IMG/VR virus record: IMGVR_UViG_3300008266_000574
Location: 1 to 21,558 of that record
Source: a virus
Length of the DNA: 21,558 nucleotides
Strand: one strand, 5' to 3'
Shown here: in pieces, positions 1,019-21,091 of the stretch
Position numbering within the stretch: the stretch's first letter is position 1
Layout of the letters: each line of letters opens with the position of its first letter
Made by a program: the position numbers and the translations under genes
Notes under the pieces: model-generated
Database searches by the model: none
What the model was told of the DNA's origin: nothing
The model's input: the letters and a program-made list of their open reading frames with translations, nothing else

Positions 1019-1026
1019 TATTTATA
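1019..1026 (+). promoter_or_regulatory. TATTTATA motif upstream of the gene at 1033
   Basis: This octamer fills most of the 14-base gap between two genes and ends 6 bases before the ATG at 1033. The same octamer, with A or C last, precedes the genes at 3538, 6013 and 16726. Read on the minus strand it is TATAAATA, the T4 late-promoter consensus. It is a candidate control site seen by recurrence only. Confidence 0.35.
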
Positions 1027-1032
1027 ATTAAC

Positions 1033-1473
1033 ATGCCTATTGATCCTGATAAGGTTTTTGATCTGTTTGGAGGTAAAGGAGGGTTAGATCCTAAGGGGCC
1101 TGATTATGTCAGTCCTACTTCTTTGCCTAAGATAGATTATAATGATCCTTTAACTATGCTTAAAATGTTTAAGAAGATGATTATGAATTATACTTCTTAT
1201 AATAAAGGGTTAACTTTAATGTTTAAACAAGTTGACCCTAAATTAGATGTTAAAGAGATAGAAAGAGCAGGTGAGGCTATGTTATATGAAAGAGCTTACA
1301 CTTATATAAGCAAGTTTAAAGTAAAGGACAAAAAGTCCCAAGAAGTTTTAGCTTCATACATGGACAGTGAATTAGAAGTTGCCTTTAAATTATCTATTAA
1401 GCATTTTGAAGAAATTGAGGAATATGAAAAATGTGCCCTCTTAAAAAAAATTTTTGACCTTTCTTCAAAATAA
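1033..1473 (+). CDS. conserved phage protein, unknown function, UVR-like C-terminus
   Basis: I do not recognise a function for this 146-residue protein. The first 38 residues are rich in Gly, Pro and Asp and probably extended, and the rest looks mainly helical. Residues 120-142 have the pattern of a UVR motif, the short helical hairpin used by UvrB, UvrC and several other proteins for protein contacts: alternating Glu/Phe/Leu with a central E-Y-E-x-C-A-x-L core. A segment at 40-66 is rich in Met, Phe and Lys. It is preceded by the recurrent TATTTATA site and followed by a 69-base AT-rich gap in which I see no hairpin or promoter. It may be a small scaffold or a partner of a nucleic-acid enzyme, but this is speculation. 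Confidence 0.8.
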   Translation: MPIDPDKVFDLFGGKGGLDPKGPDYVSPTSLPKIDYNDPLTMLKMFKKMIMNYTSYNKGLTLMFKQVDPKLDVKEIERAGEAMLYERAYTYISKFKVKDKKSQEVLASYMDSELEVAFKLSIKHFEEIEEYEKCALLKKIFDLSSK

Positions 1474-1542
1474 ATTGGCCTTCCCTAAAAAGTTTTATAA
1501 CTTCAAATTCAAATATTAAAAAATAAAAGTTAGTAAGAAAAA

Positions 1543-1737
1543 ATGAAACAGAGAGAGTATATAAATAATCAGATAGATAGGTTAGAAGCTAAAATGAAGC
1601 ATATAGATTTTTATGCCTCTAGAGGAGACCTAGATAATGTTAGAGTTACTTTAGCAGAGTGTTTAGAGCAATTAGGTGATATTAGATCTTCTATTGAAAG
1701 AGAATCAATTGAAGGCAGAGAATTAAATAAAATTTAA
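1543..1737 (+). CDS. small coiled-coil protein, unknown function
   Basis: This 64-residue charged protein is predicted to be almost entirely helical. Hydrophobic residues (I, L, M, V) recur at 3-4 spacing through residues 7-55, consistent with a short coiled coil or helical hairpin; a break near G28-D29 would be the turn. No catalytic residues stand out. The start has an A-rich leader and no Shine-Dalgarno. It lies 69 bases after the previous gene and 13 before the HD-domain gene. The reading frame and its fit between neighbours support it as real. The function is unknown. Confidence 0.7.
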   Translation: MKQREYINNQIDRLEAKMKHIDFYASRGDLDNVRVTLAECLEQLGDIRSSIERESIEGRELNKI

Positions 1738-1750
1738 AAAAATAAAGGTT

Positions 1751-2527
1751 ATGGAATTAACAGCGGAGCAAATCCAACAGAATTGGATAGATTTAGAAGA
1801 GACTATTAAAACTTTTATTGAAGAACCTCGTCGTTCTCAATTACTAGATTTCTATTCCCAATACTCTGATCGTATTATGATGATGCCTGCGGCTCATAAA
1901 AAAGAATATCATAATGCTTTCCCAGGAGGTTATGTAGACCATGTCCTTAGAGTAGTAGATTGTGCTCTGAAACTAAATAATGTCTGGGTTGAGATGGGAG
2001 TAGATACTTCTACTTATACTGAGGAAGAGTTAGTTTTTTCTGCTCTAAATCATGACTTAGGTAAAATCGGAGATGAAAATCATGAAGCCTATATCCCTCA
2101 GACTGACCAATGGAGAAGAGAAAAATTAGGTGAAACTTACCAACATAGTGAAAAGTTAGCCTTTGCTTCTATCCCTGATCGTGGCCTATATCTCCTCCAG
2201 GCTCATGGTATTAGATATACCTTCAATGAAATGATAGCAATCCAGACTCATGATGGATTATATGATGAAGCTAATAAAAAATATTTAATTAACTTCTCCC
2301 CAGCTACTAAACCTAGAACTGCCCTTCCTTATATTATCCATCAAGCTGATTTAATGGCTGCTAGGATTGAATTTGAAAAAGAATGGCTTCCAACTTTTAA
2401 AGAAACTAAAGTTGAAGTTAAAAATGAAAACTTTACTCTAACTAAGGAAAAAAAGACTCCTATTAAACAGAAAGCTTTAGGAAGTATTAAAAGTGAAAGT
2501 TTAAAAAATCTATTAGATAATCTATGA
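1751..2527 (+). CDS. HD-domain metal-dependent phosphohydrolase
   Basis: This 258-residue protein carries the HD-superfamily metal ligands in order: H54 and H64 in a segment containing GGYVDH (59-64), the H101-D102 pair in NHDLGK (100-105), H167-D168, and D200 in HQADLMAARIE. The H-x-A-x-x-GG-x-x-x-H arrangement resembles the HD domain of YhaM-type 3'-5' exoribonucleases, although no OB-fold RNA-binding domain is present. HD enzymes of this kind hydrolyse phosphomonoesters or phosphodiesters of nucleotides or RNA, and the actual substrate is not evident. The basic C-terminal 40 residues, rich in Lys, could contact nucleic acid. Its stop overlaps the next start as ATGA. With the HAD and YkuK-like genes it makes a cluster of nucleotide or nucleic-acid hydrolases before the late sigma gene. 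Confidence 0.88.
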   Translation: MELTAEQIQQNWIDLEETIKTFIEEPRRSQLLDFYSQYSDRIMMMPAAHKKEYHNAFPGGYVDHVLRVVDCALKLNNVWVEMGVDTSTYTEEELVFSALNHDLGKIGDENHEAYIPQTDQWRREKLGETYQHSEKLAFASIPDRGLYLLQAHGIRYTFNEMIAIQTHDGLYDEANKKYLINFSPATKPRTALPYIIHQADLMAARIEFEKEWLPTFKETKVEVKNENFTLTKEKKTPIKQKALGSIKSESLKNLLDNL

Positions 2528-2802
2528 CTATTATAATAATTAGTATATTAGGTTGTTTGGTTGTGATCTTAGGATTCACAACCTTTAACCTTCTAAAGAA
2601 AAATGAAAAACAAGAAGATATCTTGGTAGAATATCAAAACTATCTAGATAGCCTCTCCAGAATTGTTGAGTTTGCTGACGAAAAAATAAAAACTATAGAT
2701 AGTAAAGGTATTTTTAAAACAGATGATGAAGTAGGTTTTATATATGAAGAAATAAAAAACCTACAAAAGGTTCTATCAAATTTTAGAATAGATAAATTAT
2801 GA
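2524..2802 (+). CDS. small single-pass membrane protein, unknown function
   Basis: This 92-residue protein begins with a hydrophobic segment (about residues 2-23, rich in Ile, Leu and Val) followed directly by positive residues KK at 25-26. That fits an N-terminal membrane anchor with the rest in the cytoplasm. Residues 27-92 are charged and probably helical, including an acidic patch around the DDEVGF motif. The hydrophobic segment lacks a clear signal-peptidase site, so an uncleaved anchor is more likely than secretion. It overlaps both the HD gene upstream and the sigma gene downstream by 4 bases, so the three are almost certainly co-transcribed. It may place a phage factor at the membrane. 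The function is unknown. Confidence 0.78.
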   Translation: MTIIIISILGCLVVILGFTTFNLLKKNEKQEDILVEYQNYLDSLSRIVEFADEKIKTIDSKGIFKTDDEVGFIYEEIKNLQKVLSNFRIDKL

Positions 2803-3518
2803 TAAAAGAAGTAACAGAAAAGAAAAAGAAACCGTCATCAAATAATTACTTTACTCAAGAGACTGAAGATGCTATAGTGGCCTATAATAGGGCCACTTCC
2901 ACTGATGAAAAGGAAAAAATTTATCATAAATATATTCATTATGCTTTTTTTAAATTAACAGAAAATATTATCCATACCTTTAAGTTTTATTACACTGAGG
3001 TAGATAATATTGAAGACTTGCAGCATGAAATTATAACTTTTCTCCTCCAAAAAATGCACCTCTTTAACCCTGAGAAAGGAGCCAAAGCATATTCTTATTT
3101 TGGAACAATAGTTAAAAGATATCTTATTATCCAGAATACTAAAAACTATAAAAAAAGAGTTGATAAAGCCCCAGTTGAGGAATTATATAAGGATACAAAT
3201 CATTCTTATGAATTAGACACCCCTCTTAACCAATCTGACTATATTTCAGATTTTATAGATCAGTATGTAGAGTATTGTTCTGAAAATATTTATGAACTCT
3301 TTCCTAAAGATAAAGATGCCCAAGTAGCAGATGCTATTTTAGAAATTTTTAGAAAAAGAGAAAACATAGATATTTTCAATAAAAAGGCTCTTTACATTTA
3401 TATTAGAGAAATGATAGATGTTAAAACCCCACATATAACCCGTGTAGCAGATCGTTTAGGTGAGATATATAAAGAACAATATATTTTTTATTTAAATAAC
3501 GGATATACCAATTTTTAA
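2799..3518 (+). CDS. 55: late-transcription sigma factor, T4 gp55-like
   Basis: This 239-residue protein fits the gp55 family, the phage-encoded sigma that binds host RNA polymerase core and recognises late promoters. Residues 71-110 show the sigma region 2-like core: an acidic/aromatic helix (IEDLQHE), then a short loop with FNPEKG at 89-94, then AYSYFGTIVKRYLI at 97-110. This mirrors the F-x-P-x-K-G-x-x-x-x-x-Y region of sigma-70 region 2. It is longer than T4 gp55 (about 185 residues). The extra C-terminal part (about 130-239) is charged and helical and may hold the contact for the sliding clamp or for the promoter. There is no -35-binding region 4, as in gp55. Its place directly before the structural genes fits a regulator of those genes. 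Confidence 0.85.
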   Translation: MIKEVTEKKKKPSSNNYFTQETEDAIVAYNRATSTDEKEKIYHKYIHYAFFKLTENIIHTFKFYYTEVDNIEDLQHEIITFLLQKMHLFNPEKGAKAYSYFGTIVKRYLIIQNTKNYKKRVDKAPVEELYKDTNHSYELDTPLNQSDYISDFIDQYVEYCSENIYELFPKDKDAQVADAILEIFRKRENIDIFNKKALYIYIREMIDVKTPHITRVADRLGEIYKEQYIFYLNNGYTNF

Positions 3519-3524
3519 CTAAAG

Positions 3525-3536
3525 TATATTTATCAT
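3525..3536 (+). promoter_or_regulatory. 12-base motif containing TATTTATC before the gene at 3538
   Basis: The 12-mer TATATTTATCAT lies in the 19-base gap after the late-sigma gene. It is repeated exactly at 16696-16707, before the fibre gene cluster. Its core octamer ends 3 bases before ATG 3538. If it were a -10 element, transcription would start at about the AUG, giving a leaderless mRNA. Function is inferred from recurrence and position. Confidence 0.4.
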
Positions 3537-3537
3537 C

Positions 3538-3882
3538 ATGGGTAAGTTTGATAAAAAAATATTTGGTAAAGTTACTTTTTCTAATCTTTTAGAAGAAATT
3601 TATAATAATCAAAAAAAGAAAGAAGAACAAATCTCAGTCCTAATTCAAGAGCTTAAACCAATGGTTCAAGAGATTGGTGATGCTACTCTTATAGTTCCTT
3701 TAATTAAGGAATATCTTGAAATAGGAGTTAAGAATGATGAGGCCTTAATTAAAATGGCTACCATTGTTCAACGTTCTATGCAGGTTGAAGAAGGGGGAGA
3801 TGCTTTTGGAATGTCTGAAGCTGAAAAACAGCAATTATTAGATGAAGTAAAAAAATATAATGAGGATAAAGGTAAAAAATGA
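3538..3882 (+). CDS. small helical protein next to the late sigma, unknown function
   Basis: This 114-residue protein is charged and looks wholly helical. A basic N-terminus (residues 1-11) is followed by an amphipathic Glu/Lys/Leu stretch (12-45), a conserved-looking central segment around IVPLIKEYLEIGVKN (53-67), and a Lys/Glu tail. I do not recognise the function. It could be a small co-activator of late transcription of the gp33 type, suggested only by its size and its place next to the gp55-like gene, or a small baseplate assembly factor, suggested by its 4-base overlap with the hub gene. No motif settles this. Confidence 0.8.
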   Translation: MGKFDKKIFGKVTFSNLLEEIYNNQKKKEEQISVLIQELKPMVQEIGDATLIVPLIKEYLEIGVKNDEALIKMATIVQRSMQVEEGGDAFGMSEAEKQQLLDEVKKYNEDKGKK

Positions 3883-5129
3883 GTACTACCTACGGCTTTT
3901 CAGGAGCAGTTAATAATTCTCAAAATAGAAATAATACAACTGGTAAAACTGGTTTTTCTATTGAAGGGCATAGAGTTAAGGACATAATATTAGGTCCTGA
4001 AAGTAAGGGATATGAAGAATATGGAGGAGACGCAGCTATAGGTTATATTTTTTTTGAAAAAATTAATGGGGGTTCAACCAATCGTGAAATCTACTCAAAC
4101 CCCGCAATACCATTATTTCCTAATTTAAAATTTTTTCCATTAATTGGAGAAATAGTACCTATAATAAATTTACCTCAAAGTTTAACCTCTACTCAAAGAA
4201 CAGGAGTCAAAGTCCCTTACTACTTCCCCCCAGTTAATATATGGAATAATCCTCATGTTAACCCATCTCCTTATGTTAACCCTACAATTGAATCTCAAAA
4301 TAAATCTTTAGACGAAATTCAGGCAGGTTTTGCTAAAAAGGTTAATCCTAATCTTCCTGAATTAAAATTAGGAAATACTTTTAAAGAAAAAGACAATATC
4401 CGACCTCTTCAACCATTTGAAGGAGATCATATAATTGAAGGAAGATGGGGTAATTCTATAAGACTTAGTAGCACAATAAAAGATTCAACTAATTGCGCTA
4501 AAAATGAATGGTCAAAAATAGGAACAAATGGAGATCCTATTATAATTTTAAGAAATGGCCAACCCAACCTTCCCCCAGCTTCTTTATCAACATCTTCTTC
4601 TATCACTCCTATAACTGAAGAAGTAGATAAAGATAAATCTTCCATTTATTTAACTTCTACCCAACAAATCCCGCTTAAAAATACACTAAGTGATTATAGC
4701 AGTTATACCTCATATATACCTAAAGCCCCTGGAGAATATACTGGTAATCAAATAATGCTCAATTCAGGTAGGATAATGCTTAACGCTAATTCAGACCATA
4801 TAGTTATGTCATCTAAATTAACAACTAGTTTTAATGCTGGAAAAGGATTTAACTTTGACTCAGGTACTAATTTTGTAGTTAAAACTAAAACTACAATTAG
4901 ATTAGGAGATAAAATGGCTCCCCATCCTCTTCTAAAAGGAGATGTAACTATAAAAATTCTAACAGATTTTCTTAAAAATTTAAAAATATTTTTAAATACT
5001 TTACAATCTTCAACTGATCCTGGACTAGTAGCTATGGTTGGAACTTTACCTTTCTTTTTACAAAATATAGAGGATACTATAGTTGATTTAGACACTAAAA
5101 CCAAATCTTCTAAAACTTATACTAAATAA
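3879..5129 (+). CDS. gp5-like baseplate hub/spike protein without lysozyme domain
   Basis: This 416-residue protein has the layout of a tail-tip spike. An N-terminal beta-rich region at about 45-100 looks like the OB-fold of gp5/VgrG proteins. A conserved block at 181-196 (EGDHIIEGRWGNSIRL) is followed by GDPIIILRNGQP and SSIYLTSTQ at 254-262. A beta-helix-like stalk at about 289-345 has short alternating hydrophobic/polar strands (SGRIMLNANSDHIVM at 297-311), as in spikes that puncture the outer membrane. Residues 341-360 give LGD..APHPLLKGD, a typical closing motif in related phages. T4 gp5 (about 575 residues) has a lysozyme domain between the OB-fold and the stalk; nothing here resembles one. 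It overlaps the upstream gene by 4 bases and the downstream gene by 1. Confidence 0.75.
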   Translation: MSTTYGFSGAVNNSQNRNNTTGKTGFSIEGHRVKDIILGPESKGYEEYGGDAAIGYIFFEKINGGSTNREIYSNPAIPLFPNLKFFPLIGEIVPIINLPQSLTSTQRTGVKVPYYFPPVNIWNNPHVNPSPYVNPTIESQNKSLDEIQAGFAKKVNPNLPELKLGNTFKEKDNIRPLQPFEGDHIIEGRWGNSIRLSSTIKDSTNCAKNEWSKIGTNGDPIIILRNGQPNLPPASLSTSSSITPITEEVDKDKSSIYLTSTQQIPLKNTLSDYSSYTSYIPKAPGEYTGNQIMLNSGRIMLNANSDHIVMSSKLTTSFNAGKGFNFDSGTNFVVKTKTTIRLGDKMAPHPLLKGDVTIKILTDFLKNLKIFLNTLQSSTDPGLVAMVGTLPFFLQNIEDTIVDLDTKTKSSKTYTK

Positions 5130-5995
5130 TGTCCATAGTATTAGATGAAAATGTAATAAATGAATCTACCCCTGAAGAATCAAAAGCTAAGGGGGCTGAA
5201 GCTTTTGGAAAAACTATAGCTCAAAAGGGAGTAAAGTTTGCTATACAATTAACTCCTAAATTAATTGAGTTAGCTAATATCAATATAAAACCTGAAAATG
5301 TCTGCCTTCCCCCAGATGATATAAAAAAAATAACAGACTTAAGAAATAATATTGTAGGTCAAGCTAATAATATATCTAAAACATTAGATATTTTAACTAA
5401 AAGTATATTAGGGGTATCAAGTTTTTTAGATATAACTATATTTTTAATCCAAACTATAAAAGGAGTAAAGATAGCTACCAGTGCGGCCTCATCTATTCTT
5501 CCAGTAACCCCTGGTTTTATTCCAGCTGTTATCAGTAACACTGATGATGCTATAACTTTAACTACTTTTGATAAACTAGGTACTTCTAGATTAATTAAAC
5601 TTAAAAATATTACAAATAAAGCCTCAGTACCTATATCATTAACTAATAGATATATAAAACAATTTATAGACATACTAAATAATTTAGACAATTTATTAGT
5701 AGGATGTGCTTCTGAAATTGGAATAGATTTGACACCTGTTGATCCTAATTTAATTAGGATAGCTAATGAGGTAGAACAGGCTGAAAAAACTGAGAATCAA
5801 AATACATATCAAGGTTTTAAAATTGAGATAGAGACAATTCCATATACTCCTACAGTTAATAGAAAACGAGCAATTGGGTTAAATCAAGATAATATTAAAT
5901 TAATAGAAACAACTTTATCATTTACAACAAATGATCAAACTTTAATTGATGAACTTAAATTTATTATTGATAGAGATAATTTAAAAGCTTATTAA
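5129..5995 (+). CDS. hub-associated structural protein, unknown function
   Basis: I do not recognise this 288-residue protein as a named family. Residues 30-60 and 65-115 look helical. Residues 95-136 are hydrophobic, rich in Ile, Ala and Ser, and end in a Pro/Gly-rich stretch (SSILPVTPGFIP), possibly a buried assembly segment rather than a membrane anchor. Residues 226-288 form a separate C-terminal beta/alpha domain beginning YQGFKIEIETIPYTP and ending TLIDELKFIIDRDNL. Such a C-terminal domain is familiar in baseplate proteins of marine phages, from memory rather than a search. It starts on the last base of the hub gene (TAATG) and precedes the gp25-gp6 wedge genes, which places it in the baseplate hub or its assembly. 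Confidence 0.75.
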   Translation: MSIVLDENVINESTPEESKAKGAEAFGKTIAQKGVKFAIQLTPKLIELANINIKPENVCLPPDDIKKITDLRNNIVGQANNISKTLDILTKSILGVSSFLDITIFLIQTIKGVKIATSAASSILPVTPGFIPAVISNTDDAITLTTFDKLGTSRLIKLKNITNKASVPISLTNRYIKQFIDILNNLDNLLVGCASEIGIDLTPVDPNLIRIANEVEQAEKTENQNTYQGFKIEIETIPYTPTVNRKRAIGLNQDNIKLIETTLSFTTNDQTLIDELKFIIDRDNLKAY

Positions 5996-6000
5996 ATAAA

Positions 6001-6008
6001 TATTTATA
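6001..6008 (+). promoter_or_regulatory. TATTTATA motif before the gene at 6013
   Basis: This is an exact copy of the octamer at 1019-1026, in the 17-base gap before the unit that leads into gp25 and gp6. It ends 4 bases before the ATG. Candidate late control site by recurrence. Confidence 0.35.
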
Positions 6009-6012
6009 AACA

Positions 6013-6342
6013 ATGAAGACTAACACTTTCAAATCTGTAATTAAAGAAGCAGTTAGAGAAGTTATTAGAGAAGAATTAAGGGAAATTTTATTAGAAGCAG
6101 TTAAAGCTCCTAAACAAACTGTTACAGAATATGTTCCTCAATCTTCTCCATCTTATTCTCCTTCTCCCTCACTAACCACAGAACAAAAAAGAGAACAATA
6201 TAGAAATATTTTAGGAGAAACAGCAACTAGCTTCACAACCCAAAATATAGCCCCGTTTAATCCTATGGGAACTATGCCAGGAGGTGACCTCCCAGCTGGT
6301 GAATTAAGTATGAATCAAATAATGAATTTAATGAGTAAATAA
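6013..6342 (+). CDS. small helical protein before gp25, unknown function
   Basis: This 109-residue protein starts with a strongly amphipathic Arg/Glu-rich helix (residues 7-31, EAVREVIREELREILLEAV). A Pro/Ser linker (35-53) follows, then a short charged segment, then a Gly/Met/Pro-rich tail with NPMGTMPGGDLPAGEL at 83-98. The pattern of an oligomerising helix plus flexible linker suggests an adaptor or assembly factor. No enzymatic motif is visible. It overlaps gp25 by one base (TAATG), so it is very probably made together with the wedge proteins. Confidence 0.78.
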   Translation: MKTNTFKSVIKEAVREVIREELREILLEAVKAPKQTVTEYVPQSSPSYSPSPSLTTEQKREQYRNILGETATSFTTQNIAPFNPMGTMPGGDLPAGELSMNQIMNLMSK

Positions 6343-6758
6343 TGGCTTTTGAGATAGCTAATAAAACTATAAGTACTTCTTCAAAAAGAACAGCTGTTGG
6401 GATATCTATACCTTTTTCAAACCAAAAAGCTATATTTAACCAGACATATTCTACAAAAGAACAAATTAAATCTAATATACTTAATTATTTATTAACTAAT
6501 AAAGGAGAAAGAGTCTTAAATCCTTCTTTTGGAAGTAACTTACTTAAACAAATTTTTGAACAAATTACCCCTGATTTACTCTCAGGGCTTGAAATTCAAT
6601 TACGTGAAGATATAAGTAATAACTTTCCTTTAGTTAGGATAAATACTTTAGATGTTATACCCAATCATGATTCTAACACAATCACTATATCTTTAACATA
6701 TACCGTTTTAAATAGTGAGATTGAAAACATAGAAGTAAATATAAATACTACCCAATAA
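6342..6758 (+). CDS. 25: baseplate wedge protein, gp25-like
   Basis: This 138-residue protein matches the gp25/GpW-like wedge family (T4 gp25 is 132 residues). Family hallmarks are the helix with NYLLTNKGERVLNPSFGSNL (48-67), in which GER and PxFG are the conserved core, then an amphipathic helix (70-92), then the closing beta strands (ITISLTYTV at 114-122). In the T4 baseplate gp25 joins the inner wedge (gp6, gp7, gp53) to the first sheath ring. Here it lies 2 bases before the gp6 gene, the conserved gp25-gp6 pairing of contractile tails. No Shine-Dalgarno is seen. Confidence 0.95.
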   Translation: MAFEIANKTISTSSKRTAVGISIPFSNQKAIFNQTYSTKEQIKSNILNYLLTNKGERVLNPSFGSNLLKQIFEQITPDLLSGLEIQLREDISNNFPLVRINTLDVIPNHDSNTITISLTYTVLNSEIENIEVNINTTQ

Positions 6759-6760
6759 AA

Positions 6761-8635
6761 ATGGCTACTAATAGAGATGTAAAATATTTAAATAGAGATT
6801 TTAATTCTTTTAGAAATTCTTTAATAGAATTTTCTCAAACCTATTTCCCCAGCACATACACTGACTTTAGCCCAGCTTCTCCAGGAATGTTATTTATAGA
6901 GATGGCATCTTATGTTGGGGATGTTTTATCTTTCTATTTAGATAATCAAATACAAGAAAACTTTATTCAGTATGCTAGACAAAACCCTAATTTATACACT
7001 TTAGCTTATACTTTAGGTTATAGACCTAAAGTAACAGGTGTAGCTACAGCTGATATTGAATTTTATCAACAAGTTCCTTCCATACAAGATATATCAAGTA
7101 GCACTTGGGTACCTGATTTTAATTATGCTTTAAATTTTGACGCTAATACTCAAATTAAATCTAATTTAAACGCTGGAACTTTCTTTTTAGTAGAAGATAC
7201 TGTTGACTTTACTTTTTCTAGTTCATTAGATCCCACTGATGTTTCTGTTTATCAAATAGGTGATGATCGCCCTGAATATTTTCTTCTTAAGAAAACTAGA
7301 AAAGGTATCTCAGCTAAAATTAATACCCAAAATTTTACATTTGCAACTCCAACTAAATATTCTACTATTACTATTAATAGTGAAGATATTATTGGTATAC
7401 TAGATATAGTAGATAGTGATGGTAATATTTGGTATGAAGTACCTTATTTAGCCCAAGAAACAATCTTAAATAAAATTAAAAATAAAAGTACATTTGCTAC
7501 AGATCCTAATTTAGATGATGATTCTAGTGTTGTACCCTATATTTTAGAATCTAAAAAAATACAAAGAAGATTTGTCACTAGATTTAAATCTGATAATCAA
7601 CTTGAAATTCAATTTGGAGCTGGAAGTGTTAATGATAATGATGCTAATATAGTACCCAATTCTGATAATGTTGGATTAGGTTTACCTTTTATAAAAGATA
7701 AATTAACAACAGCATATTCTCCAACTAATTTCTTATATACTAGTACTTATGGAATAGCCCCTTCAAACACAACTTTAACAGTTAGATACCTAACTGGGGG
7801 TGGATTAGGGTCTAATGTTCCTTCTAATGTATTAACTATTATAAACAACCCAGGTAATATTAAATTTACCAACTCAAATTTAGACCCAACTACTGCTCAA
7901 TACATATATAATTCTGTAGCTATAAATAACCCTAACCCAGCAGTTGGAGGAAAAGATGGAGATACTGTTGAAGAGCTTAGATTAAACTCTTTAAATACAT
8001 TCCAAACTCAATTAAGGACAGTAACTCAAGAAGATTATTTAATAAGAGCTTTAAGTCTACCCTCCGAATATGGATCTATAGCTAAAGTTTATGTTGAACC
8101 AGAAAAAGTTGAAAACCTCCTCCCAGGAGAAATACCATCAATATTAAATCTGTATGTTTTAGCCTTTAATAGTGGTAAACAATTAACATTGGCTTCTACT
8201 ACTTTAAAACAAAATTTAAAAACATATTTATCACAATATAGGATTATAAATGACTCTATTAGAATTAAAGATGCTTTTATTGTTAATATTGGAATAGACT
8301 TTGAATTAATATTATTACCTAATTATAATAGTAATGAAATTATAAATAAATGTATAATTGAATTAAAAAATTTCTTTAATATAGACAACTGGCAAATAAA
8401 TCAACCTATAGTTTTAAGAGATTTATATATATTATTGGATAAAGTAGAAGGTGTACAAACTGTTAAAAATATTACTATATATAATAAAGTAGGTGAAAAT
8501 GTTGGATATTCGCAATATGCCTATGATATAAATGGAGCTACTCAAAATAATATAATATATCCATCATTAGATCCTTGTATTTTTGAAGTAAAATATCCTA
8601 ACTTTGATATTAGAGGTAAAGTAACATCATTCTAA
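6761..8635 (+). CDS. 6: baseplate wedge protein, gp6-like (baseplate J family)
   Basis: This 624-residue protein is close in size to T4 gp6 (660). The N-terminal helical domain is well conserved: residues 5-89 contain YLNRDFNSFRNSLIEFSQTY, SPGMLFIEMASYVGDVLSFY and an LAYTLGYRP ending. A central beta domain follows, then the baseplate-J-like core at about 330-600, with VRYLTGGGLGSNV and the GKDGDTVEELR...TVTQEDYLIRAL block at about 396-432. A C-terminal helical/beta region ends in a short positively charged tail. gp6 dimers form the inner ring of the baseplate that triggers sheath contraction. Its direct neighbours, gp25 before and other baseplate genes after, agree. Confidence 0.95.
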   Translation: MATNRDVKYLNRDFNSFRNSLIEFSQTYFPSTYTDFSPASPGMLFIEMASYVGDVLSFYLDNQIQENFIQYARQNPNLYTLAYTLGYRPKVTGVATADIEFYQQVPSIQDISSSTWVPDFNYALNFDANTQIKSNLNAGTFFLVEDTVDFTFSSSLDPTDVSVYQIGDDRPEYFLLKKTRKGISAKINTQNFTFATPTKYSTITINSEDIIGILDIVDSDGNIWYEVPYLAQETILNKIKNKSTFATDPNLDDDSSVVPYILESKKIQRRFVTRFKSDNQLEIQFGAGSVNDNDANIVPNSDNVGLGLPFIKDKLTTAYSPTNFLYTSTYGIAPSNTTLTVRYLTGGGLGSNVPSNVLTIINNPGNIKFTNSNLDPTTAQYIYNSVAINNPNPAVGGKDGDTVEELRLNSLNTFQTQLRTVTQEDYLIRALSLPSEYGSIAKVYVEPEKVENLLPGEIPSILNLYVLAFNSGKQLTLASTTLKQNLKTYLSQYRIINDSIRIKDAFIVNIGIDFELILLPNYNSNEIINKCIIELKNFFNIDNWQINQPIVLRDLYILLDKVEGVQTVKNITIYNKVGENVGYSQYAYDINGATQNNIIYPSLDPCIFEVKYPNFDIRGKVTSF

Positions 8636-8639
8636 AAAC

Positions 8640-9797
8640 ATGGCCGTATATAAAATTTTTCCCGAAAAAGACACTACAATTTATTCTCTATTTCCTTTTA
8701 TGAATACTGGAATAGATGAGATTTTAGAAGCTACAACTACAACTTTTGGATTAGATGTTAACCCTCAAGTGAGTAGAGCTCTTTTAAAATTTTCAACTGA
8801 CCAAATAACTAGTGTTATCAATAACACTATAGGAGGTTTTAACAATTTAGGCGATACCAGACTTAAAATGTTTATAGCCACAGCTGAAGGTCTTAACACA
8901 GATACAGCCCTAGAATTCTTCCCTATCTCTGGATCTTGGAATATGGGTACAGGTAGATATTTGGATGATCCTATAACCCCTAATGGAGCAAGCTGGCAGT
9001 GGAGTGACTTTTCAGGCTCCAAAAGATGGCCTATTAATAATTTTTCCCCTTCAGGATATGTTACAGGATCTTGGGATCCTACAGGATCTGCTGGTGGGGG
9101 AACATGGTGGTTCAGAAATCCTGATACTAACACCATCTTTAATATAACCCAATCCCTTAATTACTCAGACACTAAAGATATCACAGCTACTATAACTCCA
9201 TATATAACAGCTTGGTATAGTGCCTCAATTAATAGTGGAACATTACATAATGAAGGTATTTTAATCAAACAAACTCCTCCAAATGAATTTATATACTCAG
9301 AATATAAAGCTACTGAGTTAAAATATTTTTCTATAGATACCCATACTATATATCCACCTCATTTAGAATTTAGGTGGATTGACTATTCCTTTAATACCGG
9401 GTCTTCAACTAACACTATTATAACAACTCCCCAATTATATGTTAGTTTAGATAATAATAATGGATTTTTTAGAAGTGGTAGTGTACATAAATTTAGAATT
9501 AATAGTAGACCTAAATATCCTACTAGAGTATTCCAAACTTCTTCTTTATATACTAAAAATTATTATTTACCAACATCTTCTTTTTATGCTATAAAAGATT
9601 TAGATACTAATGAATTTATTATAGATTTTGATACTAATTATACACAAATAAGTGCTGACAATGAAAGTAGTTATTTTACTATATATATGAATGGATTAGA
9701 ACCTGAAAGATATTATCAAATTTTAATTAAAGTTTTAATTGGGGGAGAAACTTTAATATTAGATAATAATTATTATTTTAAAGTAATAAACGGATGA
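8640..9797 (+). CDS. beta-rich baseplate/tail protein with DNRLRE-like domain
   Basis: The first 245 residues of this 385-residue protein resemble the DNRLRE beta-sandwich domain: a starting strand with KDTTIYSLFP (10-19), a mid R-ALLKF strand (46-51), FPISGSWNMGTGRYLDDP (94-111) and GASWQWSDF, then D-I-x-A-x-I-x-P-Y-I-x-x-W (180-192) and NEGILIKQ (204-211). The region is rich in Trp, Ser and Gly. Residues 245-385 form a second beta-rich domain ending in aromatic strands. DNRLRE domains occur in surface proteins and are associated with binding. The position after gp6 is where T4 has gp7 and gp8, so it may replace an outer wedge protein. Function in tail or baseplate is inferred from context. 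It overlaps the next gene by 4 bases. Confidence 0.72.
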   Translation: MAVYKIFPEKDTTIYSLFPFMNTGIDEILEATTTTFGLDVNPQVSRALLKFSTDQITSVINNTIGGFNNLGDTRLKMFIATAEGLNTDTALEFFPISGSWNMGTGRYLDDPITPNGASWQWSDFSGSKRWPINNFSPSGYVTGSWDPTGSAGGGTWWFRNPDTNTIFNITQSLNYSDTKDITATITPYITAWYSASINSGTLHNEGILIKQTPPNEFIYSEYKATELKYFSIDTHTIYPPHLEFRWIDYSFNTGSSTNTIITTPQLYVSLDNNNGFFRSGSVHKFRINSRPKYPTRVFQTSSLYTKNYYLPTSSFYAIKDLDTNEFIIDFDTNYTQISADNESSYFTIYMNGLEPERYYQILIKVLIGGETLILDNNYYFKVING

Positions 9798-10177
9798 GTA
9801 CTTTCACTTTAGATAAAACTTTATATAATAAAAGAGATTATAATATTTTTATAGACACTTCTTTTACAGAGTTAGTTCCTCCCCAAGAAGAATTACCTTC
9901 TTCTTTAACAGTATCTGACTTTTTTGCTTTATATAACACCTTATTTTTTGATATACCTAAAAATGGTGAAACCAATTCTCATGAATATTTAATTCAACAA
10001 AGTTCTGAGTATCTTGGTAGAGGTTTTATAGAAACAGATATTCAACCTTTAGTTGATGAAATAACTTTTCTAAGACAAGAATTACTAGAGACAAAACAAC
10101 AATTAACTAGTCTATTAGGAAATTCTACTTTAACTTCACAAACATTAAGTAACATATCAAATACACCTGAGTTATGA
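9794..10177 (+). CDS. small baseplate-associated protein with C-terminal coiled coil
   Basis: In this 127-residue protein, residues 1-28 (LDKTLYNKRDYNIFIDTSF) form a short start, and residues 40-76 (DFFALYNTLFFDIPKNGETNSHEYLIQQS) look like a conserved helical core. Residues 81-108 show a heptad-like pattern of Leu/Ile with Glu/Gln, so a coiled coil is likely. The tail is Ser/Thr-rich. The combination of small size, coiled coil and 4-base overlaps with both large structural neighbours suggests a trimerising adaptor or clamp in the wedge. I do not recognise a named family. Confidence 0.75.
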   Translation: MSTFTLDKTLYNKRDYNIFIDTSFTELVPPQEELPSSLTVSDFFALYNTLFFDIPKNGETNSHEYLIQQSSEYLGRGFIETDIQPLVDEITFLRQELLETKQQLTSLLGNSTLTSQTLSNISNTPEL

Positions 10178-13100
10178 GTAATTGTCAAAGTATATCAATT
10201 ATAGCTTCTGAAAATGTCACAATCCTCCCCCCTTCAGGATCTGATGAATTAGTAACTTTAGCAATATCTGACTCAACTCAAACTCAAACCTATTCAGATA
10301 ATGAACTTACTCTTATCAATCCTATAACAACATCTTCTTTATTTAATCCCGCTGAAGATTATATAGAATTCACTATTTATGATTCCAATGAAAATCATTT
10401 AAAGACTGAATTTAATTATGATAGATTTAAGATTTTACAAGATTTTGGTAATTTAGCCGCTGGATTAGTATCTAATCTATTAATAGATGTTATATCTGAT
10501 CTTATTTTTCAAGGACTAGATTTTGGTAAATATAATACATCATATAATTTTCTTCATAATGAATTAGGTTCTTCTTCTGATAATAGGACCTATAGTATAA
10601 AAGAAATATCTTCAAATCGTACTGAGATACGATTAATTACAACAGAATATTCAAATAGTGAATTAAGTGAATTAGTTAATTCTTTTTCATCAAGTTTATC
10701 TTTAGGGGATTATTTTGATAATTTCTATTTAAATTTTGGTTATAATTATTTATTAATAGCTAATAATATTTTATTAGACACTACTAGTGACCCTCATACA
10801 GTTCTAATTAAACTATATGAACCTCTTCCTTCTGACATTAGTATTAATGATAAACTATGGATTGTAACTAAAAAAGCTAATACTTTATCATTAAATGTTA
10901 ATTTACCATTAGTCCCTATTGCAGAAGAAGTTATACATCCTAAATTAAAAGGACCAAACTTTAATATAGACCTTAAAAATCAAATAAACCAATCTACCCC
11001 TCTTAAATCCTACTCAGATCTAATCAATGTACCTCTAACATCATCTTATAATCAGTTACAAAATCTTCTTAATCAAAAGGGTATTAAAATAAATGTAGAT
11101 TATACAAATTTTAATAACTTTACCCATTTCTCTTCAGCTAAAACCAGACTAGAAAATTTTTACTATAAAGTTAGTCTTATTGAAAACTATAATAATGAAC
11201 TTTCTTTATTAAACTCAATCACAGGTTCTACTTCAAGTTCACTCCAAGTATCTTCTAGTAAAGCTGTTTTAGAATATAATATTCAAGATATTATAACTAA
11301 CTTTGATGGATTTGATTACTTTTTATATTACACTTCAAACTCCTCAGCTTGGCCTAAACAAAATGGAGAACCCCCTTATATTTTATACTCAACAGGAAGT
11401 TCACAAGTCTTAAATTGGTATGGTAGTGATATAATAAATAATCCATACTATGGTGGGCAAATCTTAAGTGCCTCAGATTATGATAGAGAAAATCAAGAAA
11501 ATTTATTAAAAACTATACCTGAATTTTTAAGAGATGATCCTTCTAATTCTCAATATGAACTTTTTATTGAGATGATAGCTCATCACTTTGATAATATTTG
11601 GTTATATATAAAAGATGTTACTAATAAATTTGATAATGATAATAGATTAAGTTATGGAGTTTCTAAAGATTTAGTTGCCCAAATTTTAAGAGATTTTGGT
11701 ATTAAACTTTACCAAAATAATTTTTCATCAGACGATCTTTATTCAGCATTTTTAGGTATAAATGCTTCAGGAAGTTTATTACCTCCAACTGGGTCAGAGT
11801 ATATTGAAAATTATATAACCGCTTCTAATGAAGCCTTACCTTTAGATGATGTTAATAAAGAAATATATAAAAGAATATATCATAATTTACCCTTCTTATT
11901 AAAAAAGAAAGGTACTATTGAAGGACTAAGAGCCCTTATAACATGTTATGGAATACCTGATACTATACTAAGAATCTCAGAATTTGGGGGTAAGGATAAA
12001 ACTAATTTTAATGATTGGGATTATTTTTATAGAAGATATAGTAAGGCATTTCAAACTAAAGGAGTTGACACTGCTTATATATCTTTTCCTTGGCTTCCTT
12101 TAAAGACTCATCAACAAGCTAATAATGAATGGAAAGTCCCTGACACACTTTTATTTCGATTTAAAACCTCAGGAATCCCCCCATCTTCCCATTTTTCTCA
12201 ATCTTTATGGTTATTAGGATCTTCTAATAACCTTGACACTACTTCTAGTTTTAATGCTGGATTATTTTTATTTTATACAGGATCTGGAGCTTTAACCAGT
12301 GGATCTTATTCAGGTTCTATCCCTAGTGAAAGTAAATATAATGGTGACTTAACCTTATATATATCAGGAGCTAATGGAACTTATTTAAGTTGTTCAGTCA
12401 ATTTACCATTTTATAATAATGATTGGTGGAGTGTTATGGTTCGAAGATCACCATCTATTAATATAAATGAGACTGGTTCTAGTGATGTTGTGTATAGTCT
12501 TTATACTAAAAATAAAATATATGAAGGGTGGGATGGTGATAAAATAGGTTATCAAGCCTCATCATCTATCATAAACACATCAAGTCTATCTTCTTCAATA
12601 AATTACTCCTGGGCTACCTTTACAAGCAGTTCAGCCATAAATACTGGTTCAACTTCAACTATTTTACAAAGTGGAGCTTCTTTAGGATCAAGATTTGGTT
12701 ACACTGGCTTTACTAAATCTGATGGTATAAAAATACTAACCACAGGCTCAATTTATTTCACAGGCTCTTTTCAAGAAATTAGAGCATATAGTGTCCCTTT
12801 AACAGAAGAAGTATTTAATGATTATGTTATGAATCCTGAATCTGTTGAAGGATTAGCTTTAACAGGTTCTAATTCATCATTTAGTATTCTTCAATTTAGA
12901 GCCCCCTTAGGAAATGAATTAGAATTACCTACTAATAATACCCAATCTGCCCCTAATGTATACCAGGTATTTACATCGCTTCATCCTTCAATAACTGGTT
13001 CCAATATAAACTTAATAACTGCTTCTTTTGTAATTTCTAATCCTACAGATAATCCATCTAACTTATATCCTAGCCAAAGTTCTTATTTTATAAGAGACAA

Positions 13101-14154
13101 CCAAGAATCACCCTCTGATTTAGGAAATTATTTAATAGATAATGAAGAAATTTATTACTTAGACCAGCCTGCTGTTGGTATAAGAAATAGAATAACTGAC
13201 AAAATTAGAATTGAGTCTTCTAGTTTACCTAGTGGAAACACTTTAACACCTTATATTAATGTTCAACAAAAATATCCTCAAAGTGAAAGTTATACTCGAG
13301 ATGTAAATTATCTTGAAGTCGCTTTTTCTCCCCAAAATGAGATAAATGATGATATATCTTCAACCTTAGGATATTTTAACATTGGAGAATATATTGGTGA
13401 CCCCAGACAGATATCTGAGTCTTCTACTTCTTATAGAGATTTAAACAAAATTAGAGATGAATATTTCCAAAAATACTTTTCTAAATATGATGTAAAAGAT
13501 TTTATAAGAATTATTAAATATTTTGATAATTCTTTATTTAAAATGATTAAAGACTTTGTACCCGCTCGAACTGGAGTTTCAACTGGAATTGTTATTAAAC
13601 AACATCTTTTAGAAAGAAATAAACATCGCCCACCCCAAGTAAGCCAAGAAAACATTACCTATACAGGTTCTATTAAGTCTAATCAAATTTGGGACCCTAT
13701 AAATGAGACAACTTACATATCAAATTCTTTAATTGAAACTTTTAAAGGAGAAACTGGAGGAGTGTTTGAAACTTATGCTGGATTAGGAACAAATCCTGAA
13801 GGTCAGTCTCAAGGATATTCAAATAATATTCATCCTGAAGTAACTCAAAGTTGGTTTGAATTAATTCTAGGACCTGGGGGAGGTGTTTTTGTTACTAAAT
13901 CAACTCAAGATGAATTTTATAATGGAGAATTAAGTGGCTCTAGATATGTTGTGACTAATGGTGAGCTTAACCCTAATAACCCTTACTTAGATTATATAGG
14001 TATCACAGCTAATTATAAACTTAAATTTTATGGAGGTTATGAAGATATGTTTGTGCCTATAGATCTTTTCTTAGATGAAGCTACAACTGGATCTTTAGGT
14101 TATGCTTATTTATATTATGATACTGGTAGTGTTTTTAATCCTTTAAATATTTGA
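10174..14154 (+). CDS. large wedge-like structural protein with tail-protein-I-like blocks and an apparent LamG-like domain
   Basis: At 1326 residues this is the largest protein in the window. Residues 1-430 are mixed alpha/beta with no recognised motif. Residues about 440-600 resemble a tail protein I framework: IPEFLRDD...ELFIEMIAHHFDNIWLYI near 450-480, then IYHNLPFLLKKKGTIEGLRALITCYGIPDT at about 565-594. Residues about 655-880 are beta-rich with alternating Ser/Gly/Tyr and aromatic strands, like a LamG/concanavalin-type jelly-roll (SLWLLGSS, GLFLFYTGSG, NDWWSVMVRRSP, GSFQEIRAYSVPLT). Helical tail-protein-I-like sequence returns at about 1040-1160 (RDEYFQKYFSKYDVKDFIRIIKYF, DFVPARTGVSTGIVIKQHLLER). 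The remaining C-terminus is beta-rich. The place after gp6 suggests a gp7-like outer wedge arm. A lectin-like domain could contact cell-surface sugars. Confidence 0.72.
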   Translation: MSNCQSISIIASENVTILPPSGSDELVTLAISDSTQTQTYSDNELTLINPITTSSLFNPAEDYIEFTIYDSNENHLKTEFNYDRFKILQDFGNLAAGLVSNLLIDVISDLIFQGLDFGKYNTSYNFLHNELGSSSDNRTYSIKEISSNRTEIRLITTEYSNSELSELVNSFSSSLSLGDYFDNFYLNFGYNYLLIANNILLDTTSDPHTVLIKLYEPLPSDISINDKLWIVTKKANTLSLNVNLPLVPIAEEVIHPKLKGPNFNIDLKNQINQSTPLKSYSDLINVPLTSSYNQLQNLLNQKGIKINVDYTNFNNFTHFSSAKTRLENFYYKVSLIENYNNELSLLNSITGSTSSSLQVSSSKAVLEYNIQDIITNFDGFDYFLYYTSNSSAWPKQNGEPPYILYSTGSSQVLNWYGSDIINNPYYGGQILSASDYDRENQENLLKTIPEFLRDDPSNSQYELFIEMIAHHFDNIWLYIKDVTNKFDNDNRLSYGVSKDLVAQILRDFGIKLYQNNFSSDDLYSAFLGINASGSLLPPTGSEYIENYITASNEALPLDDVNKEIYKRIYHNLPFLLKKKGTIEGLRALITCYGIPDTILRISEFGGKDKTNFNDWDYFYRRYSKAFQTKGVDTAYISFPWLPLKTHQQANNEWKVPDTLLFRFKTSGIPPSSHFSQSLWLLGSSNNLDTTSSFNAGLFLFYTGSGALTSGSYSGSIPSESKYNGDLTLYISGANGTYLSCSVNLPFYNNDWWSVMVRRSPSININETGSSDVVYSLYTKNKIYEGWDGDKIGYQASSSIINTSSLSSSINYSWATFTSSSAINTGSTSTILQSGASLGSRFGYTGFTKSDGIKILTTGSIYFTGSFQEIRAYSVPLTEEVFNDYVMNPESVEGLALTGSNSSFSILQFRAPLGNELELPTNNTQSAPNVYQVFTSLHPSITGSNINLITASFVISNPTDNPSNLYPSQSSYFIRDNQESPSDLGNYLIDNEEIYYLDQPAVGIRNRITDKIRIESSSLPSGNTLTPYINVQQKYPQSESYTRDVNYLEVAFSPQNEINDDISSTLGYFNIGEYIGDPRQISESSTSYRDLNKIRDEYFQKYFSKYDVKDFIRIIKYFDNSLFKMIKDFVPARTGVSTGIVIKQHLLERNKHRPPQVSQENITYTGSIKSNQIWDPINETTYISNSLIETFKGETGGVFETYAGLGTNPEGQSQGYSNNIHPEVTQSWFELILGPGGGVFVTKSTQDEFYNGELSGSRYVVTNGELNPNNPYLDYIGITANYKLKFYGGYEDMFVPIDLFLDEATTGSLGYAYLYYDTGSVFNPLNI

Positions 14155-14163
14155 TGAATTAAA

Positions 14164-16695
14164 ATGCCTAAAATTGTAGGAAATGTTGGAGGTAATGTTG
14201 TACCTCAAGGTGTTAGTAAAGGAGTAAAATTGATAAAAATACATCGTTATGATAATGATAATAATGATCAGTCTTTTTATTTAGAAAATCTACAAAATAT
14301 TTCTTTTAATTACTCTGATGCTGGTTTAGCTAATTATACTATAGTATCAACTAAAGAATATGATGACTATTTTTTATTTGGGATTAGTCCAACTGGGGGT
14401 TCTCAACTCTTAACTTCTAGCGCTGATGATAATGTTTTAGATTATATTGTTCAACCTCAATTAGCACCTAATAGTAGTGATATTGTATTATCTTCAAGTT
14501 TTAAAGGATTTACTGAAGTTGGGCAAAAATTAATAGGTACTAGTGTGGCCCCACCTTTTCCTGATACTTTAAATTATTTTGGAACAGTTGGTGCTAGTAA
14601 TAGTGGTAGATATAGACCTACAGATACTCCTAATACTAGATTTACTATATCTAATCCTATTCTTTATTTTACCTTAAATGGAGCTACAGGACAATCTGGT
14701 GCCGCCTTTGTAGATATCCAATTTATAGCCCAAATATCAGGAGATGCTTTAGGTTTAAGAGATATAATTTTATATAAAAAGACTGTAAGTCTAGGAGGGG
14801 CTTCATACCCTTACAATGTTGATTTTACTTCAAATACAGCTGTTAACCCTACTTTTAATGTTGGGGCTGGGGGAGTTGTTAAATTTGGAGCTAGATTCTT
14901 TATAGCCTCCGGATATTCTACAACCTCAGTCTGGGGAACTTCTAGGACCCCTTCAACATATTGGGGGACTTTTCTTATAGCCCCTCGTAATGATAATACC
15001 GCAGGTGAAATTGAATCTTCATTTCAAATTGGAGTTGAAGATGATAATTTTAATGACTCTGATTATAATCCATTCTTTAACAATGTTGAAGATAGTAAAC
15101 CTTCAAGCAAATATTATAAAGTAGACTATAATGGGTCAACAATCCCAACTAATTTAGATTTAATTTTAAATGAAGCTGCTTTAAAAGCTGAAGTTAATGA
15201 CTATTATTATTCTTTAGAAAGACACACCAGACCTAGATATAAAGGTAGTAAATATGAAGGATTAGACTTTAACCTTTCACTATATAAAAGAGGAGACAAC
15301 CTCCCCTCAGCTGAAAGAAATGGTGTTTATTTTGCTAAGATATTAGGGGCAGGAGGTCAATCTCCTGAGTATATCAATAAAACTTTTTTCTTTACTGACA
15401 AATTAATAGATGTTAATAGTAATGTGTTTGACTCTAAAGACCCAGACTTTCCTCAATTTATAGATTATAAACATACTTTTGAAGAAGGAAAATATGTAGA
15501 TGTTAATATAAATCCTGCTACCCCTACATTTACGGGTTATACTAATCTAACAGGAAGACATAAAATTTTAAGATTAGGTACTTTAAAAACTTTATTAGTA
15601 ACAGGTTATAACACTGGAAGTCTTGATTATGTAAATAATGGATTTGTTTTTGAAAATACAAGTGAAGAAGTTGATGATAGTCTTAAAGATTTTAGATTTG
15701 TAGTGAATAGGAATGCTGATCAAGTTTTAATAGCTAATACTAATGATACTATATTATTTAACACCACTATAAGTGAACCTGAAGCTGGAGATAAAGGATT
15801 TACATATAGTAGTGGGATATACACTTTTAATATAACAGAAGATTCAACTGAGGCTACTGTTAAATTCAAAGCTAATCTCACTTTATTAAATAATAAACTT
15901 CCTTCCCCTAGTGAAGAAATTGGCCCTCCCACTAATTACACAGTAACTATTTTTAAAAACTCAACAATCTCTCTAGCCTCAACCACGGGTATTATACCTG
16001 GTTATAATAGTAATACAAGTACTCCTGGTGAAATTAATATATCTTTAGAATCTCCTCCAATAACATTTATAGATGATGATAATGTTCGTGTCCAAATTAA
16101 TGTAAACCAAGGTTTACAAGAGGTTAAACAATATAGTAATCTTCAAGTAACCCAAAATCCTTCACCCGAAAATATAATCTCGGAATCAACTTACCTGAAT
16201 CCTGTGACGGATATAACATCCACAGCTTATACCTCAAGTCCTACAACATTCCTATGCCTCTCTGAAGGTCTTTCAGAAAACTATGGTAATAAACAAATAT
16301 TATCTTCATCACAAACTACTTTTGGTTACTCACAAAATACTATATCTCCTTTCACACCCCAACCTGGAGATGAGATTAGATTTGGATATAATGAAGATAA
16401 TATGTTTAGAATAGTTAATGTTTTTCTCCCAACTGAAACTTCAACTGGAAGACTTTATTTACAAATAGATAGAGAAACTTCTATAACAGGTTCTTCTCGT
16501 AATCATTTTTTAATTAGAACATTTTTAAATGATAATGCTGGTATGACTCTTGATGTTAAAAAAGAATATGCTAATCCTAATGGAATTGATGGAACTACTA
16601 AATCAAGTACTATTAAACCTCAATATATTTCAAATGAACTTAAACAAAATTTTTCAAATATAGTGCGTGATCTTACTAATGAGGGTGTACTTTAA
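14164..16695 (+). CDS. large beta-rich tail/baseplate structural protein, unknown family
   Basis: This 843-residue protein is almost all beta, rich in Ser, Thr, Asn and Gly. Residues 1-60 contain the basic-to-aromatic start GVKLIKIHRYDNDNNDQSFYLENL. Residues about 150-280 form a Gly/Ala-rich beta domain. A conserved-looking block lies at 345-378 (DYYYSLERHTRPRYKGSKY), with Arg/Lys and Tyr crowded together. Residues 430-520 and 560-700 are further beta domains with short Asp-rich loops that could bind calcium. No enzyme motif is visible. It sits 9 bases after the wedge-like gene and before the fibre genes, which suggests an outer baseplate or fibre-attachment protein. Related proteins are familiar in marine T4-like phages, but I give no name. 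Confidence 0.75.
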   Translation: MPKIVGNVGGNVVPQGVSKGVKLIKIHRYDNDNNDQSFYLENLQNISFNYSDAGLANYTIVSTKEYDDYFLFGISPTGGSQLLTSSADDNVLDYIVQPQLAPNSSDIVLSSSFKGFTEVGQKLIGTSVAPPFPDTLNYFGTVGASNSGRYRPTDTPNTRFTISNPILYFTLNGATGQSGAAFVDIQFIAQISGDALGLRDIILYKKTVSLGGASYPYNVDFTSNTAVNPTFNVGAGGVVKFGARFFIASGYSTTSVWGTSRTPSTYWGTFLIAPRNDNTAGEIESSFQIGVEDDNFNDSDYNPFFNNVEDSKPSSKYYKVDYNGSTIPTNLDLILNEAALKAEVNDYYYSLERHTRPRYKGSKYEGLDFNLSLYKRGDNLPSAERNGVYFAKILGAGGQSPEYINKTFFFTDKLIDVNSNVFDSKDPDFPQFIDYKHTFEEGKYVDVNINPATPTFTGYTNLTGRHKILRLGTLKTLLVTGYNTGSLDYVNNGFVFENTSEEVDDSLKDFRFVVNRNADQVLIANTNDTILFNTTISEPEAGDKGFTYSSGIYTFNITEDSTEATVKFKANLTLLNNKLPSPSEEIGPPTNYTVTIFKNSTISLASTTGIIPGYNSNTSTPGEINISLESPPITFIDDDNVRVQINVNQGLQEVKQYSNLQVTQNPSPENIISESTYLNPVTDITSTAYTSSPTTFLCLSEGLSENYGNKQILSSSQTTFGYSQNTISPFTPQPGDEIRFGYNEDNMFRIVNVFLPTETSTGRLYLQIDRETSITGSSRNHFLIRTFLNDNAGMTLDVKKEYANPNGIDGTTKSSTIKPQYISNELKQNFSNIVRDLTNEGVL

Positions 16696-16707
16696 TATAT
16701 TTATCAT
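16696..16707 (+). promoter_or_regulatory. second copy of the 12-base motif, upstream of the fibre cluster
   Basis: TATATTTATCAT is identical to 3525-3536. It lies at the start of the 30-base gap at 16696-16725, the longest gap in the structural block, and its core ends 20 bases before ATG 16726. It is a candidate late promoter for the fibre cluster, here with room for a short leader. Confidence 0.4.
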
Positions 16708-17382: not shown

Positions 17383-17394
17383 TATATAAAAAAT

Positions 17395-18429: not shown

Positions 18430-18432
18430 TGA

Positions 18433-19347: not shown

Positions 19348-19351
19348 TATT

Positions 19352-21083: not shown

Positions 21084-21091
21084 TCTTTATA
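21084..21091 (+). promoter_or_regulatory. one-mismatch copy of the TATTTATA motif before the primase gene
   Basis: TCTTTATA matches the octamer at 7 of 8 bases and ends 5 bases before ATG 21097, similar spacing to the copies at 1019 and 6001. It could be the same signal or chance in AT-rich DNA. Confidence 0.2.

Follow-up and report, generated by a model that had tools for sequence, protein, structure and literature searches.

A probable single-box late promoter of T4-like Bacteroidota phages and its candidate sigma-like reader

The octamer TATTTAT(A/C) recurs in the gaps before four genes of a viral DNA fragment, and the question raised by this locus is whether it is a late promoter and, if so, in which direction it is read. 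The window, that is the whole stretch of DNA analysed, is an IMG/VR record complete at 21,558 bp; it is a linear fragment with 30% GC and every gene rightward. Two tRNAs are followed by an operon of early appearance that closes with a sigma-like gene (2799-3518); the units after it belong to the baseplate and the rest of the tail module. As annotated relatives it has Flavobacterium phage immuto, whose 160-kb genome is complete, Microcystis phage Mel-JY01 and the huge phage LR756508, and the clade is abundant in IMG/VR, where hundreds of contigs were matched. Contigs with the same sigma family were binned together with MAGs of Winogradskyella, Flavobacteriaceae, Flavobacteriales, Bacteroidetes and Saprospiraceae, which points to Bacteroidota as the most likely host group of the window phage. 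The units relevant to the question are the following:

1543..3518, + strand: sigma operon, consisting of a 64-aa ORF, an HD phosphohydrolase-like gene, a 92-aa ORF and the sigma gene, with no box at any start.
2799..3518, + strand: phage protein resembling a sigma factor, with sigma-70 region 2 in a gp55-like N-terminal half; it is the candidate for reading the box.
3538..5995, + strand: predicted late unit of the genes (ORFs) at 3538, 3879 and 5129, the internal starts having 0/51 and 1/21 boxes among relatives.
6013..16695, + strand: predicted late unit with gp25- and gp6-like baseplate wedge genes (PHROG baseplate wedge matches) and further tail-module genes.
16726..20611, + strand: predicted late unit, its first gene 80% identical to immuto gp107.

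Two other genes of the window have peculiarities. The ORF at 66-572, called from a TTG at 66, traverses the tRNA-Leu gene, and the true start of this gene, which has PHROG matches to phosphoheptose isomerase and polynucleotide kinase, is probably an ATG inside the listed ORF. The tail-module gene at 19352-20611 includes about ten tandem SSYAL repeats.

The original prediction named four octamers as a late control signal, and all four are present, each on the + strand:

1019..1026, + strand: candidate late box TATTTATA before 1033, found in 14/37 relatives and thus kept in part of the group only.
3527..3534, + strand: candidate late box TATTTATC before 3538, directly after the sigma stop codon, found in 47/47 non-redundant relatives.
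6001..6008, + strand: candidate late box TATTTATA before 6013 (baseplate unit), 4 nt from the ATG, found in 49/50 relatives.
16698..16705, + strand: candidate late box TATTTATC before 16726, found in 35/35 relatives, and also in immuto, G001 and Mel-JY01.

The 12-mer common to 3525-3536 and 16696-16707 is TATATTTATCAT. Counted over the whole window and both strands the octamer shows no enrichment (14 copies vs. 13.4 expected). Nine intergenic gaps measure 8 bp or more (195 bp in all, 88% AT) and hold four sense copies and no antisense copy, with 0.11 expected (P about 5e-5 for a fixed motif); the proposed excess in the gaps is real, while its hand-estimated expectation of about 0.05 has to be replaced by a computed value about twice as large. 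When any shared 7-mer is allowed, one occurs in four of the nine gaps by chance in 13% of simulations, and therefore the window alone is suggestive of a real signal and provides no proof. Within the window, a 14-base extended pattern amounted to noise only, and E. coli-type sigma-70 promoters or terminators were not enriched. A 7-of-8 copy at 21084-21091, grouped with the other sites in the original prediction, was dropped as a late box: it precedes an apparent DnaG-like primase gene, and the orthologs of immuto DnaG are boxless in 9/9 genomes.

Conservation was assessed in up to 134 relatives, from the sequence preceding the ortholog of every window gene; near-duplicates were removed, and TATTTAT counted as a match when no more than 50 nt before the orthologous start. 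The gene starts of relatives are predictions, in places possibly wrong. The reversed word was unusable as a control, since TATTTAT is palindromic in its lettering and gives the same word backwards. At this threshold the box was found before 3538 in 47/47 non-redundant relatives, before 6013 in 49/50, before 1033 in 14/37 and before 16726 in 4/4; for the last start, a second set of 75 loci, searched up to 60 nt upstream, gave 35/35. Beyond these four, starts with at least 21 relatives had zero to three matches each, with the exception of 8640 (10/48). No box was found within 50 nt at the starts of the sigma operon (1543, 0/10; 1751, 0/55; 2524, 0/31; 2799, 0/47), and the word is nearly absent at 3879 (0/51), 5129 (1/21), 6342 (0/48) and 6761 (1/52) as well as at 9794 (0/30), and scarce at 10174 (3/42). 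The starts at 569 (0/3), 14164 (0/4) and 17395 (0/4) were boxless as well, with too few relatives to judge. Across relatives the box is constant, whereas its flanks, the length of the gap and the spacing from box to start (8-30 nt at 3538) vary. Five relatives (L093, L106, L125, L127, L134) have a gap so short that the box overlaps the 3' end of the sigma gene, and their scoring as boxless at 3538 was rejected.

The octamers picked in the window are, by this comparison, the conserved ones, that at 1033 in part. A chance product of AT-rich gaps would agree with the unremarkable window-wide count and with the 7-mer simulations, but it has virtually no probability left and is refuted by the orthology test: a box kept at 47/47, 49/50 and 35/35 of the same starts, and at almost none of their neighbors, is therefore a real element.

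The association with late genes was followed into complete relatives. The 52 late gaps of immuto (2,076 bp) contain 17 sense octamers, with 0.8 expected and a maximum of 4 in 300 simulations, and 3 antisense ones; its early gaps (5,611 bp) contain 7. TATTTAT is the 7-mer that best separates late from early gaps in this genome (P 2.8e-6). In the upstream gaps of immuto, G001, G005, G007 and G012 it is the top or near-top unbiased 7-mer. Pooled over related genomes, with structural and early classes assigned by homology to immuto and P values accordingly nominal, the box precedes 62/190 orthologs of structural genes vs. 6/126 early genes (P 5e-10). Together with its retention at orthologous unit starts, this preference for late genes supports the proposed late promoter element. 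Genes at which the box is conserved are, among others, gp107, gp73, gp20 (portal), sheath, tube, hub and tape measure; a box also occurs before some early genes, among them GroES in 2/5 genomes, and none lies directly before the major capsid gene itself. A terminator-like hairpin precedes 5/23 late boxes of immuto vs. 1.8% of random late-region positions. The huge phage LR756508 (484 kb, 40% GC), whose sigma is 43% identical, has no enrichment of TATTTATA (4 sense vs. 6 antisense copies) and no matching late word; its late signal may have diverged.

The direction of the box had been left open, because the reverse complement of its A variant is exactly the T4 late word TATAAATA. Reading it as a T4-type late promoter on the minus strand, which would generate antisense transcripts, has a very slim probability. 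Scored against the orientation of the gene that follows, and in genomes lying either way round on their contigs, the upstream gaps hold 25 sense and 7 antisense copies in immuto, 20 and 2 in G001, 15 and 1 in G005, and 18 and 5 in Mel-JY01; the sense form dominates likewise in fragments and genomes with one-strand genes, and leftward genes are nearly absent in immuto. Moreover, the flanks of the box are asymmetric, with A before it and A-rich sequence after it, and track the direction of the gene, and the antisense word fails to separate late from early genes (17/190 vs. 8/126, not significant). A further argument comes from the capsid operon, in which a structured RNA lies downstream in the sense direction.

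At the operon corresponding to gp67-capsid of immuto, the box is located about 95-109 nt before the start codon in 24/24 non-redundant relatives. Two hairpins come after this box, and many relatives have a terminator-like hairpin upstream of it.

L170:27521-27625 (immuto 125521-125625): predicted two-hairpin leader RNA, also in L340, L233, L353, L228 and L176 (alignment A4).

RNAalifold and a structure drawn by hand agree on 13 pairs, with 99.3% of cells paired, and 11/13 pairs show double compensatory changes, which none of 500 shuffles equaled (0/500). The first stem begins about 15 nt past the initial T of the box, as would fit a transcript start at about position 11-12. The leader is present in one copy per genome in 6/7 relative genomes scanned; the scan found none in Mel-JY01 or in the window, and the four examples tested matched no Rfam family. 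Upstream of the gp67 ortholog of G003, G013 and G015, TACGTAT(A) stands at the place expected of the box, before the first leader hairpin, and is possibly a variant late box. The leader supports promoter function, and its direction, independently of the short distances between box and start codon that prevail elsewhere. Since it lies directly downstream of the box, the direction is fixed as sense: from the sense excess and the position of this RNA, the box is to be read on the sense strand of the genes, as TATTTATA, and not as minus-strand TATAAATA.

An A+U-rich word 3-20 nt before the start codon, as seen at many sites, could also act in the mRNA, in ribosome binding, as a translational operator or in RNA processing. 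Such a role is improbable to a high degree, because the coupled internal starts of the same late units are boxless (0/51, 0/48, 1/52), the distance to the start ranges from 8-30 nt at 3538 to about 95-109 nt at the capsid operon, and the box can fall inside the coding sequence of sigma.

The sense-strand consensus is TATTTAT(A/C/T), and the fuller box is ATATTTATAA; A/purine-rich bases follow at about 11-12 nt from its initial T. A logo of 168 non-redundant gap sites displays a single 8-bp TATA-like box with no conservation at -35 and no -33 partner; a weak signal near -22/-23 appears in one genome set. These features bear on whether ordinary host holoenzyme might read the late genes, the box being a variant of the -7 element of the host primary sigma. 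Bacteroidota promoters consist of TTTG at -33 and TAnnTTTG at -7 (PMC6847099; PMC9723704), and the ATATTT core in common, the TTGG found at -33 of some sites and the weak signal near -22/-23 all speak for this reading, which is nevertheless unlikely. Late boxes have no general -33 element, and the G at -5 and the T at -12, which hardly vary in Flavobacterium johnsoniae (PMC6847099), are unconserved here. The split between late and early genes would require another factor, and the same genomes contain distinct early promoters of host type (TTG...TATATTTAGG in immuto, TTG...TATATTTGT in Mel-JY01).

The early-type signal of immuto is TTG(C/G)-N~20-TATATTTAGG, with 14/16 sites at 22-77 kb, outside the virion region; that of marine relatives is TTGG-N~19-CGTATATTTA, and that of Mel-JY01 is CTTGCATA-N~12-CGTATATTTGT. 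The early gaps of these phages thus carry predicted promoters that resemble the Bacteroidota -33/-7 type. In some places the two kinds of signal coincide: a host-type promoter, TTGG-N~19-CGTATATTTATAA, overlaps the late box at immuto 90660 and at G003 23947 and 41572, and further overlaps occur at G004 42040, G006 12244 and 3604, and G009 22934, which suggests promoters used both early and late. Mel-JY01 (L172 / PP395634) combines Bacteroidota-type -33/-7 promoters (CTTGCATA...TATATTTGT) with the late box, so that it may in reality infect a Bacteroidota bacterium and not Microcystis.

If the box is a late promoter, the protein encoded at 2799-3518 is probably the factor that reads it. Pfam Sigma70_r2 is detected in 15/27 members of its family (best 4.7e-6), the window protein alone falling below the Pfam cut-off. 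The gp55-like character assigned to it in the original prediction holds for sigma-70 region 2, while the relation to T4 gp55 itself is weak: HHalign of the two families covers 96 columns, in region 2 only, with E 4.6e-4 and a probability of 33%. Searched without a profile, the sequence has no significant PDB or PHROG match, and a PDB profile search likewise gave none. The predicted structure (pTM only 0.45) is made of helices, the N-terminal half resembling region 2 and the C-terminal part forming a domain of its own; its top PDB matches in a fold search are mostly sigma factors, at non-significant E values above 0.1. An assignment of the C-terminal domain to the Trp repressor / DnaA helix-turn-helix was rejected as too weak (Pfam E about 0.04).

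Upstream of the sigma operon lies a feature of the host type:

1475..1503, + strand: candidate host-type -33/-7 promoter of the sigma operon, TTGG-N17-TATAACTT, from sequence.

The pattern TTGG-N17-19-NGTA(T/C)NT is found upstream of this operon in 14/60 relatives vs. 0.4 expected, and in 0/160 cases at three control starts (2799, 3538, 6013). The relaxed pattern was picked with the sequences in view, and the copy in the window matches it inexactly, an earlier strict pattern having given 6/60; a host-type promoter at this place is therefore put forward tentatively.

The interpretation that best accommodates these observations, and one we consider very probable, is that the box is the single-box late promoter of T4-like Bacteroidota phages, read by a phage sigma that redirects host polymerase. 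Comparison among genomes establishes its position, orientation, conservation and late specificity, the lack of a -33 partner and the structured capsid leader downstream. The host enzyme would probably transcribe the sigma operon (1543-3518) early, from the host-type -33/-7 promoter, and the sigma-like protein (2799-3518) would then redirect host RNA polymerase to the late boxes, one of which lies directly behind its own gene and each of which would start a unit in the direction of the genes. Transcription would begin about 11-12 nt past the initial T of the box, so that little or no leader would be left on the 3538 and 6013 transcripts; leaderless late transcripts may be tolerable in a phylum that does without Shine-Dalgarno signals. 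In F. psychrophilum leaderless mRNAs make up 5.5% of the mapped set (PMC9723704). The TTT core and the upstream A of the box are, however, common to the host -7 element (PMC6847099), so the host sigma could use some box copies. A bolder version is rather doubtful: one protein might join the gp55 role (box reading by region 2) and the gp33 role (flap contact by a C-terminal helical, possibly helix-turn-helix domain), with clamp-independent late transcription, a TATTTATA box derived from the host -7 element, and virion mRNAs mostly with no leader or a very short one.

For the cultured phage immuto, the analysis supplies a predicted consensus together with a predicted reader gene and an early/late map, and the regulatory cascade is therefore directly testable. 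The system also offers a natural comparison of the ways in which gp55-like factors change their box specificity when the polymerase has promoters unlike those of E. coli, and the late boxes are candidate strong promoters for Flavobacterium genetics. In the open journal papers searched, no description of late promoters of T4-like Bacteroidota phages was found.

Bacteroidota primary sigma promoters (TTTG/TAnnTTTG) share with the late box the TTT core and an A matching -11 (PMC6847099), and they occur in the early gaps of the same phages. By contrast, the late box has no -33 partner and carries A, not G, at the position aligned with -5; with -33 unconserved and no G after TTT, it does not fit the sigma-A type. 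The likeness to the late promoters of T4 (gp55-gp33-gp45) is closer, as both have an 8-bp AT-only box, no conserved -35 and AT-rich DNA just downstream, and both serve virion genes, with a phage sigma-region-2 protein as the likely reader (PMC2988020). The conserved purine-rich bases at 11-12 and the capsid leader from near 15 agree with a start site about one helical turn from the box, as in T4. The box here is probably slightly closer to the start site, and the sigma is longer than T4 gp55 (239 aa vs. 185), with an extra C-terminal helical domain. Searches of immuto and four relatives with the clamp families PF02916 and PF02768 gave no match, the PF02916 control being likewise silent. Late boxes related to the T4 consensus have been described in silico for the cyanophage, Vibrio and Aeromonas T4-like phages S-PM2, KVP40, 44RR and Aeh1 (PMC2988020); these keep a T4-like consensus or vary at -13/-12, whereas in the present phages, whose host is most likely of the Bacteroidota, the two central positions differ. 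The sense strand reads TATTTATA in place of TATAAATA, the two central bases being exchanged, so the T4 word itself is not found on the sense strand. Other T4 traits are found: a single box with no -35 (168-site logo), a preference for virion over early genes (62/190 vs. 6/126) and, in the candidate reader, a sigma region 2. With a probable T4-like function and a different sense-strand word, the box is therefore classed as a probable variant of T4-type late promotion.
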